A DNA stretch of 22,937 nucleotides from a virus. Location: positions 1 through 22,937 of the IMG/VR virus record IMGVR_UViG_3300044644_001080. One strand, written 5' to 3'. The translations under genes and the position numbers were made by a program. Below the pieces are notes generated by a model. The model saw only the letters and a list, made by a program, of their open reading frames with translations. It ran no database searches and was not told the origin of the DNA. Positions 20,553-22,937 of the stretch are shown one piece after another (positions within the stretch are counted from its first letter, which is position 1; every line of letters begins with the position of its first letter).

Positions 20553-20582
20553 CAAATATACAAACAAATCACACAGTGTCAA
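20553..20582 (-). promoter_or_regulatory. Promoter of the late (minus-strand) operon
   Basis: On the minus strand TTGACA (TTG at 20582-20580) and TATATTTG (20560-20553) are 19 nt apart counted from TTG, a full match to the Bacteroidota TTG/TAnnTTTG form. Only CATC lies between the -7 box and the ATG at 20548, so the mRNA should be leaderless or nearly so. Confidence 0.7.
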
Positions 20583-20624: not shown

Positions 20625-20816
20625 ATGTTTATCTGCTCAATCTTATTAGTTTTATTATCCATTGGTTTCATGATGAAAAACTCCATATATGGCTGTGGTA
20701 AAAGATGTTACAAGACTCGTAAGGAGGCTCAGGAACACTGTGACCATGATCAAAAGGTGTTCATGTGCTGGGACTGCGAAACATGGCATATAAAAAATAA
20801 CGAAGAAAACACTTGA
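20625..20816 (+). CDS. Small zinc-ribbon-type protein, 63 aa
   Basis: The C-terminal half is a likely metal site: C24 and C28 (GCGKRC), the helix KTRKEAQEHCDHD with H38, C39 and H41, then MCWDCETWHI with C48, C51 and H55. A CGK-x-x-Y-x-T-(R/K)-x-E-A ... C-x-x-C-x-x-W-H pattern is familiar from small phage and actinobacterial zinc-ribbon proteins. The first 17 residues are hydrophobic (FICSILLVLLSIGF), either a membrane anchor or an artefact. An ATG at 20670 would start the protein right at the zinc domain and give a leader of about 45 nt. Placed first in the early operon, it may bind nucleic acid or a host factor. Confidence 0.6.
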   Translation: MFICSILLVLLSIGFMMKNSIYGCGKRCYKTRKEAQEHCDHDQKVFMCWDCETWHIKNNEENT

Positions 20817-20843
20817 CAACCTTGCGTGGTTGTTTTATGTTTG
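20813..20843 (+). promoter_or_regulatory. Promoter for the structured leader and replication genes
   Basis: TTGACA (TTG at 20813-20815) and TATGTTTG (20836-20843) are spaced by 20 nt from TTG, matching the Bacteroidota form. The -33 element overlaps the TGA stop of the zinc-ribbon gene. Transcription should start near 20848-20850, about 115 nt before the initiator ATG at 20963. Confidence 0.6.
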
Positions 20844-20847
20844 TCGA

Positions 20848-20962
20848 AATATTTCACTCCTCGTTTGCTAAGAGCAACAGTAAACGAGGGTTGGAAGTTA
20901 AGTAAAGTTACTTATCAACCTAAAAGCCCGCGAAGTTGCTCTTGCGGGTTTTTTATTTCACT
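20848..20962 (+). promoter_or_regulatory. Structured leader or small RNA with three hairpins
   Basis: The only sizeable non-coding stretch folds into three hairpins. H1 has a perfect 8-bp stem CCTCGTTT/AAACGAGG (20859-20866 with 20882-20889) and a 15-nt loop. H2 pairs TAAGTAA with TTACTTA (20899-20914), with outer GTTG/CAAC. H3 is an intrinsic terminator. The H1 loop contains AAGAGCAAC (20870-20878), the exact reverse complement of GTTGCTCTT in H3 (20935-20943), so loop 1 could pair with and open the terminator. It may be an attenuator or riboregulator of the replication genes, or a free RNA of about 110 nt. No known riboswitch class is recognised. Confidence 0.55.
20922..20955 (+). terminator. 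Intrinsic terminator just before the replication initiator gene
   Basis: The stem CCCGC/GCGGG (20927-20931 with 20944-20948) continues inward as AAG/CTT past a bulged G around a 5-nt loop, and is followed by TTTTTT. Upstream A residues can pair with the T-tract. The initiator start codon lies only 14 nt after the stem, so the gene depends on read-through. Confidence 0.75.
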
Positions 20963-21667
20963 ATGCATAATCAATATTCAATCATTCCTGCAAGCGTGTT
21001 GCTGAGTAAGGAGTTGTCGTCTACAGAGAAGTTGCTCATAGGCGTTATTTCAAATCTATCAAACATTAAGGGGTACTGCTTCGCGTCAAACCACTACCTT
21101 GGCGAATGCCTTGGCATATCCAAGCACAGTGTGAGGCGAGTTATTGCTGACCTGGAACAGAAAGGTGTTTTGGGTAGAATCGTAAAGTTAAATAGCAGAA
21201 ACGAAGTTGAAATCAGATGCCTTACCATAAACCCAGACGCAGACATTTTGAGCAGAACAATTGCTCCAGAAATGCCAATATCTGATAATGAAGAGGATGA
21301 GTTTTTTAATTATACCCCTGCTCAAAAACCTGCATACCCCCTGCTCAAAAATGAGCATACCCCTGCTCAGGAATGCTCACATAATAAAAAGAATAAAGTA
21401 AAAGAAGAAAGTAAGTATAATTTCGAGCAGTTTTGGCTTGCTTACGACAAGAAGGTTGACAAGAAACAAACCCTTGCTGTATGGAACAAACTTTCTGATG
21501 AGGATCGCACACTTGCGGTAGAATGCATGGGTAACCACAAATCGGGTCGCGAGCGAAAGTATTGGAAGGACCCAGTAAGGTATCTTCGAGACAGGAGATG
21601 GGAAGACGAAACACAAACAAAAACAATAAAACAAACACCTATTCAAGATGACAACAACACATGGTAA
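20963..21667 (+). CDS. Replication initiator / replisome organiser (lambda O-like)
   Basis: I chose the ATG at 20963 (234 aa); a longer frame from 20936 would start inside the terminator stem. Residues 1-90 are a winged-helix DNA-binding domain with helix-turn-helix NHYLGECLGISKHSVRRVIA (43-62) and wing QKGVLGRIVKLNSRNEVEIR. A low-complexity linker (about 100-150) is coded by repeated DNA. The C-terminus (152-214) has FEQFWLAYDKKVDKKQTLAV, DPVRYLRDRRWED and a W-x-K-L-S core, common in phage O-like proteins that load the helicase. It would bind the origin and recruit the downstream helicase. Its end overlaps the primase-helicase start by 20 bp. DnaD-like or RepA-N-like alternatives give the same role. 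Confidence 0.72.
   Translation: MHNQYSIIPASVLLSKELSSTEKLLIGVISNLSNIKGYCFASNHYLGECLGISKHSVRRVIADLEQKGVLGRIVKLNSRNEVEIRCLTINPDADILSRTIAPEMPISDNEEDEFFNYTPAQKPAYPLLKNEHTPAQECSHNKKNKVKEESKYNFEQFWLAYDKKVDKKQTLAVWNKLSDEDRTLAVECMGNHKSGRERKYWKDPVRYLRDRRWEDETQTKTIKQTPIQDDNNTW
21312..21425 (+). other. Candidate replication origin: iterons plus AT-rich tract inside the initiator gene
   Basis: Three direct repeats of ATACCCC(C)TGCTCA lie at 21312-21328, 21334-21351 and 21357-21373, with 22- and 23-bp periods, about two helical turns. Repeat 2 carries an extra C and is read in a different frame (YPLLKN against TPAQK/TPAQE), so DNA rather than protein is conserved. TGAGCA-TACCCC-TGCTCA also makes a small palindrome (21352-21369). 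A purine-rich, AT-rich tract follows (about 21380-21425). Iterons plus an AT-rich region inside the initiator gene match the lambda ori/O arrangement. Confidence 0.55.
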
Positions 21668-22937
21668 GGTATCAATCTACAAAGACTTCAACGACCTGCA
21701 AGGACACCAAATTAGTGTACTGGGCGCACTTGAACGAATTAGGACTGGAAAATCAAAGGCACTTGTTGAACAGGCGAGGGAAGCCAAAACCAAGAAAGAG
21801 GCCGACGAGTTAAAAAAGAAACTCCCTGCGGTTTGTTTTAGTGGGACCTTTTCCAAGAGAAAGGACTCTGAGCTGCTTGAGCATTCGGGATATATCGTAC
21901 TTGATTTCGATAATGTGACAAATATTGCCCAAAAGAGAAATGAATTGTCACTTATAAGTTACGTTACCGCAGTTTGGGTTTCACCGTCAGGAAAGGGCTT
22001 AAAAGCACTCGTCCAGATTGAGTGGAAAACTAAGCATAAGGAACACTTCGATGCTCTGATGGTGGAGATGCCCGACATTGACAAGACTGGACGCAATGTT
22101 TCCCGCCTGTGCTTTGAGTCATATGACCCCGAATTGTACTACAATCCAAATGCAGAAGTTTACACCAAGATGCCGGTAAAGAAGGAGGACAGGAGGTTGC
22201 CCCAACAGACAACCACAGAGACTGTTAACGATGATGACGCCATATTCAAGAATCTTCTTACGTGGATGACGTCCAAGGGCGATGCGTTCCGAGAGGGTGA
22301 GAGGAACCACTTTGTATTCAAGTTGGCCGCAAGCTGCTGCCGGTTTGGAATGATGGAGGAGACCTGCTACAGCCTAATGATGATGTACGTTGTGCCTGAC
22401 GCTAGTTTCAGCCAGAGGGAATGCAAGCAAGCCATTCGTAGCGCGTACAGGGCCAACATGAATCAGTGGAATACGGCTGAGTTCACAAAAGACCAACTGG
22501 TTACAAAAAGTAACCACAAGGAAGTTGAGATTGTAATCAGCGCAGAAGATGCGGAGAATATCACCGCAGAGGATGTGATTTACGCCGAGGAGGTAATTGA
22601 GAAAGCCTCTGAAATCTATATGCACGGATATCGTGCTGCTCAGCCATTAGGAGTTCCACTACTTGACAAGCACTTCAAGCGAGTGAAGGGTGATTTAACA
22701 ATTGTTTCCGGAATAGGAAACTATGGTAAATCTTCATTCATGAAATGGGAGATGGTCTTCCGTATTGTAAGGTTTGGTGAGAAGGTCGCCATCTTTACTC
22801 CGGAAGAATTACCAGCGGAGCAGTTCTACCATGATCTTGTGGAGATCTACTTTGGTAAAGACTGCACACCCAACAACCCCAACCGTCCTCCATACGATCT
22901 GTACATGAAGGTGTACAAGATGATTGGGGAACACATC
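21648..22937 (+). CDS. Primase-helicase: VirE-N-like primase domain, PriCT-like segment, DnaB-like helicase (partial)
   Basis: The frame starts at an ATG overlapping the initiator stop by 20 bp and runs 430 codons to the window edge without a stop. Residues 1-175 resemble the VirE-N/BT4734-type primase-like domain of Bacteroidota, with acidic motif GYIVLDFDN (81-89) and VSPSGKGLKALVQI (111-124). Residues 198-270 look like a primase C-terminal helical domain (FREGERNHFVFKLAASCCRF). Residues 325-430 begin a RecA/DnaB-type helicase, with lead-in PLGVPLLDKHF, Walker A GIGNYGKS (355-362) and FTPEELPAEQF, where the family has Walker-B-adjacent E-M/E-E. It would prime and unwind phage DNA at the fork. 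The rest of the helicase lies beyond the window. Confidence 0.8.
   Translation, partial: MTTTHGKVSIYKDFNDLQGHQISVLGALERIRTGKSKALVEQAREAKTKKEADELKKKLPAVCFSGTFSKRKDSELLEHSGYIVLDFDNVTNIAQKRNELSLISYVTAVWVSPSGKGLKALVQIEWKTKHKEHFDALMVEMPDIDKTGRNVSRLCFESYDPELYYNPNAEVYTKMPVKKEDRRLPQQTTTETVNDDDAIFKNLLTWMTSKGDAFREGERNHFVFKLAASCCRFGMMEETCYSLMMMYVVPDASFSQRECKQAIRSAYRANMNQWNTAEFTKDQLVTKSNHKEVEIVISAEDAENITAEDVIYAEEVIEKASEIYMHGYRAAQPLGVPLLDKHFKRVKGDLTIVSGIGNYGKSSFMKWEMVFRIVRFGEKVAIFTPEELPAEQFYHDLVEIYFGKDCTPNNPNRPPYDLYMKVYKMIGEHI

Follow-up and report, generated by a model that had tools for sequence, protein, structure and literature searches.

Control of replication initiation by kissing RNAs is classic plasmid logic. 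The RNAI molecule of ColE1, which is about 108 nt long and folds into three hairpins, controls replication through loop-loop kissing over about 7 nt, and in attenuators of the pT181/pIP501 type a terminator in the leader controls the initiator gene, with RNA-RNA kissing setting the level of read-through. The RepZ leader of ColIb-P9 contains two hairpins with pairing loops, and the resulting pseudoknot acts on RepZ translation. Among phages, the packaging RNA of phi29 (about 110-170 nt) carries two mutually complementary loops, and its copies can join, while the satellite phage P4 is temperate, processes its CI RNA from a longer transcript and uses Rho-dependent termination. The CI RNA of P4 is a small untranslated RNA from the leader of the phage's replication operon; by base-pairing with complementary leader sequences it brings about premature termination before the replication genes (PMC4825925). 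Changes in the loops of kissing RNAs define the plasmid compatibility groups IncK1 and IncK2 (PMC10724649).

The locus described here lies in a 22,937-nucleotide stretch of viral DNA (the window; IMG/VR record IMGVR_UViG_3300044644_001080), in which a leader of three hairpins, H1 to H3, precedes a replication initiator gene. In its logic the arrangement is closest to P4 and to the kissing-RNA leaders of plasmid initiators. As in P4, a leader RNA is complementary to the leader of a replication operon (in this case H1 loop to H3 loop), but here pairing takes place at the loop of the terminator itself, which is of the intrinsic type, and no integrase is found in 13 records of these phages. As in ColIb-P9 and the IncI complex, a loop-loop kissing RNA stands upstream of a replication initiator (PHROG 270 in these phages); unlike in ColIb-P9, no antisense promoter was found, the second pairing hairpin is a terminator, and there is no sequence relationship. 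ColE1 RNAI resembles the leader in size, in its three hairpins, in its kissing loops of about 7 nt and in its link to replication, but kissing there takes place between sense and antisense RNAs, and against the corresponding Rfam model (RF00106) the leader scores 15.7 bits compared with a cut-off of 47. The pT181/pIP501 attenuators also need a separate antisense RNA, whereas here both partners are carried by one transcript. The packaging RNA of phi29 is likewise a phage RNA with two mutually complementary loops, but the leader has no three-way junction and occupies a different position in the genome, and the phage pRNA family in Rfam gave no match up to E = 5. Consistent with the original prediction, which recognised no known class, a search of the whole window against Rfam returned no match, and the leader alone gave only sub-threshold matches at chance level; nor did a literature search, in which subscription journals were thinly covered, return a paper describing this arrangement. 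What is known is kissing control of the plasmid type, and what differs here is the union of both partners in a single RNA, where an intrinsic terminator supplies one of the two loops.

Architecture of the leader

Relatives were collected by searches with the initiator (65 loci) and with the primase (80), as well as by promoter and loop pattern searches that added a few contigs; the resulting contigs of related phages, about 56 in all, yielded a set of 45 distinct leaders. In the window, the leader is preceded on the plus strand by a putative promoter of the Bacteroidota sigmaA type (20813-20843), TTG-N20-TATGTTTG, composed of a -33 TTG and a -7 box at 20836-20843; the pattern is matched in 45 stretches, one per contig. 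Because TATGTTTG fits the flavobacterial sigmaA -7 box TAnnTTTG, which spans positions -12 to -5 (PMC9723704), transcription would start at about 20848, four bases 5' of H1 and at the very coordinate from which the leader had originally been counted. The promoter spacer contains an inverted repeat, ACAACC-N6-GGTTGT (20816-20833, with no strand assigned), which suggests a candidate operator for a dimeric regulator. The repeat reads ACAAAC-N6-GTTTGT in two relatives, with both halves altered jointly and the symmetry retained.

The three predicted hairpins, including the terminator with its run of six T, were all located between the promoter and the initiator start, on the plus strand. Folding and covariation define H1 (20852-20896) as a hairpin of about 17 bp, interrupted by one mismatch that is conserved (C20857 x U20891), and with a loop of 9-10 nt across the leaders, in place of the 8-bp stem and 15-nt loop first proposed. 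The loop in the window is AAGAGCAAC (9 nt, 20870-20878), which ends in the kissing sequence GAGCAAC (20872-20878), a 7-nt complement of 20935-20941. H2 (20897-20916), identified by folding, is a short hairpin that joins H1 to H3; its sequence is variable, and a hairpin is predicted in 36 of 36 linkers. H3 (20922-20954), defined by sequence, folding and covariation, has the GC core, A-U flank and U6 run (20949-20954) of an intrinsic terminator, and its 8-nt loop (20934-20941), delimited by leader comparison and covariation, carries the kissing sequence GUUGCUC (20935-20941). The predicted folding energy of the whole leader is -41.6 kcal/mol versus -24.7 kcal/mol in shuffled sequences, i.e. 5 SD lower.

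Within the window, as the original prediction stated, AAGAGCAAC (20870-20878) and GTTGCTCTT (20935-20943) are exact reverse complements; two 15-nt stretches with this base composition would share a 9-nt complement by chance with a probability of 2e-4, and a 7-nt one with a probability of 5e-3. The pairing over 9-10 nt does not extend to the relatives, however: the conserved part is 7 nt, several relatives have AC or UC in place of the extending AA, and a conserved extension to 9-10 bp was rejected on this account.

An intrinsic terminator between the promoter and the first codon, with no intervening promoter, was taken as the mark of an attenuator, and this arrangement is present in 45 of 45 leaders. 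The end of the H3 loop lies 19-23 nt from the initiator ATG in all 45, and H3 itself ends about 10 nt 5' of the ATG in every relative. Since this distance is too short for a promoter, initiator mRNA must read through H3, in line with the earlier placement of an intrinsic terminator ahead of the initiator gene. In the 45 leaders, no promoter of the -33/-7 type was found when the minus strand was examined up to 600 bp downstream of the H1 loop, and control from an antisense promoter was rejected.

Matched loop codes

Every leader has 7 nt of complementarity between its H1 and H3 loops, always in one of three forms, namely code A (GAGCAAC/GUUGCUC), B (GAACCAC/GUGGUUC) and C (GUAAGGC/GCCUUAC), with no intermediates. 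Leaders located by the promoter alone comprise 15 A-A and 21 B-B pairs (n = 36), and the primase-bearing contigs comprise 19 A-A, 29 B-B and 2 C-C pairs (n = 50). Relatives that keep the hairpins and lose the complementarity, named in the original prediction as the case against it, were sought in both sets, and mixed pairs numbered 0 of 36 and 0 of 50.

On the primase tree the code switches 13 times over all three codes, with at least 11 switches forced by well-supported branches and with A and B alternating. Leader segments clearly recombine, which inflates this count, and the 13 switches do not amount to 13 independent compensations, since they derive in part from recombination of the whole leader. 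Three H2 backgrounds, including that of the window, occur with both A and B, which indicates a joint change of the H1 loop and H3 on either side of a middle segment that stayed the same. Although switches are many, independent inventions of a code are few, there being only three codes in the clade.

Formal covariation counts were made on 36 leaders. In the kissing helix 98.4% of cells are paired and two pairs have both sides changed, in 16 sequences each, as compared with 94.1% of cells paired and covariation at 9 of 17 pairs in H1, and 99.1% of cells paired and four pairs with both-sided changes in H3; in slid controls pairing drops to 38-51%, with no covariation. The alignment (MAFFT) misplaces the code-C row in the loops, which counts against the structure, and by eye the code-C pair is perfect. 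The predicted energies of the cognate 7-bp kisses are also nearly identical (-9.0, -9.0 and -9.1 kcal/mol), compared with -2.8 to +1.4 kcal/mol for non-cognate pairs. The loop-loop contact proposed originally is thus upheld by compensatory change, and a kissing contact between H1 and H3 is supported by codes that are always matched, switch in step, are of equal predicted strength and pair weakly when mismatched. In ten genomes, 7-mers of a phage's own code show no enrichment relative to those of the other codes, and the idea that the loops have a further target in the phage was rejected on this basis. Phages of different code were found in one sample, in cases too few for a comparison of avoidance.

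Genomic context and distribution

Directly downstream of the leader, on the plus strand, family matches identify a replication initiator (20963-21667; PHROG 270, HTH_36 domain) and a primase-helicase (21648-22937, with its 3' end beyond the window; PHROG 18375, BT4734-like_N). In ten of ten genomes tested, the GC-skew minimum lies within 500 bp of the leader, a position suggestive of the replication origin region but not proof of it, since the minimum also coincides with the changeover between oppositely transcribed gene blocks. A divergent promoter of the Bacteroidota type, TTGACACTGTGTGATTTGTTTGTATATTTG (20553-20582, minus strand), is predicted for the minus-strand (structural) gene block, and together with the leader promoter it would make a two-way control region at the skew minimum. 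Immediately upstream of the leader (20625-20816) is a conserved, cysteine-rich small protein of 63 aa (CGKRCYKTRKEAQEHC...MCWDCETWH), which has no family match and of which shorter relatives occur at loci L153 and L155.

The N-terminal, DNA-binding part of the initiator occurs in at least three unrelated-looking types (seen at L021, L042 and L153, and at 20963-21300 of the window), and swaps between these types leave the leader, the primase and the C-terminal part in place. Along the primase tree the initiator type shifts 17 times. Codes A and B are both found with every one of the three common types, and the loop code is thus independent of initiator type. In one record of 68,495 bases the leader is present at both ends (positions 1982 and 67574), which implies that the genome, about 65.6 kb long, is circular or circularly permuted.

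The hairpins follow in the order H1-H2-H3 between a Bacteroidota-type promoter and the initiator ATG in all 45 leaders, every one of which is directly 5' of the initiator start. The U-run and terminator architecture of H3 is present in all relatives, the terminator persisting at only 66% primase identity, and the leader is single-copy per genome. When 1.44 Mb of phage DNA was searched on both strands for a hairpin followed by a terminator whose loop is complementary to it over 7 nt or more, only copies of this leader were recovered. Primase relatives were absent from 84,980 prokaryote genomes, as was the code-A leader pattern from the prokaryote genomes searched, and a DNA search of annotated phage records yielded no leader relatives. 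The next primase clade (about 51% identity) has no leader, its weak matches (at most 22 bits) resembling ordinary terminators, versus 53-114 bits for true leaders. The hosts are probably Bacteroidota. No integrase (PF00589), ParA-like ATPase or HTH_3 repressor was found in 13 records of 60-70 kb, some of which may be incomplete contigs; their absence suggests that the phages are virulent, and a temperate or plasmid lifestyle was rejected on the same grounds. A search for PF00271 gave no useful result.

Discussion

As initiator mRNA must pass H3, attenuation is the best reading of the leader, and on balance we consider it probable that the element is a conserved attenuator, with an RNA of about 107 nt, in the origin region, which controls the initiator/primase-helicase operon and in which the kiss sets read-through. 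Transcription would begin at the base of H1, and the polymerase would make H1 and H2 before reaching the terminator; most transcripts would end at H3, yielding a stable three-hairpin RNA of about 107 nt, and a minority would read through into the initiator gene at a level set by the 7-bp kiss between the H1 and H3 loops. The finished RNA could, by contact between RNA copies, report the number of phage genomes to new transcripts, with codes A, B and C acting as mutually blind specificity groups. The promoter, the hairpins, the terminator, their position and the covarying 7-nt complementarity can be read from the sequence; transcription and attenuation are what we infer, as are the direction in which the kiss would act and the choice between contact within one copy and contact between copies.

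If the contact is confined to a single RNA, the H1 loop would capture the emerging H3 loop and weaken the terminator, in the antitermination sense of the original prediction and perhaps under the control of a protein or of the speed of transcription; this we regard as a tentative possibility, favoured by a local concentration that is greatest inside one molecule and by a geometry that, with H2 in place, would fit only if the outer A-U pairs of the terminator or the lower H1 stem open, which would weaken termination. The kiss uses loop nucleotides only (from the 9-10 nt of the H1 loop and the 8 nt of the H3 loop), however, and so is not itself in competition with the terminator stem, and a contact within one RNA has no need of discrete, equal-strength, mutually blind codes, of which only three were found, without intermediates. 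By a rough geometric estimate, the two loops of one molecule are too far apart to meet in 24 of the 36 leaders when fully stacked, and bending to 120 degrees makes them just reachable in 34 of 36, with the linker almost fully stretched. Crude as this estimate is, the borderline geometry makes contact between copies a serious possibility. Two separate molecules would be free of this constraint, and if they formed a reciprocal dimer, its short linkers would be suitably placed. We therefore lean slightly towards a kiss that acts mainly between RNA copies. This geometry, the discrete and mutually blind codes of equal strength, the lack of another target and the location at the GC-skew minimum make a dosage sensor attractive, and the self-complementary leader RNA may serve virulent phages as a sensor between genomes, with codes comparable to plasmid incompatibility groups; we offer this with reserve. 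One argument against the proposed mechanism is that a virulent phage has no evident reason to limit its copy number.

The attenuator reading must also contend with the argument that a kiss at the terminator loop could have no effect there and may instead serve RNA stability or translation. An action after read-through, on the translation or stability of the initiator mRNA, would suit the position of H3, which so close to the ATG could mask or expose the start in every relative, and it would agree with the nearest functional parallel, ColIb-P9, likewise the leader of a replication initiator; we judge it unlikely, since the U-run and terminator architecture retained by all relatives would be superfluous in a purely translational device. 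Still less probable is a stable small RNA with a task of its own, whether as a kissing scaffold resembling the phi29 packaging RNA or as a regulator of host RNA, with the initiator expressed by leakage through the terminator. The compact three-hairpin form with its 5' end at H1, and self-complementary loops that would allow dimers, are in keeping with such a product, but it matches neither phage pRNA nor any other Rfam family and is always bound to the initiator ATG, even where the DNA-binding part of the initiator has been swapped. The location at the skew minimum beside an initiator gene might finally point to repeats that are sites in DNA, bound by the initiator or belonging to the origin, with the hairpins incidental. 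This is very improbable and was disfavoured: the code does not track initiator type, A and B both being found with each of three types, and the repeats fall exactly in the loops of hairpins whose stems covary as RNA.

The matched and repeatedly switched loop codes suggest RNA-based control of phage replication. The matched codes A, B and C would provide ready orthogonal parts for attenuator studies. If the proposed mechanism is correct, the kissing-RNA logic of plasmids would extend to the replication of lytic phages, in a compact, single-transcript form at the origin region. Phages of the same code would then restrain each other in a co-infected cell and those of different codes would ignore each other, which would make RNA-based interference during co-infection directly testable.
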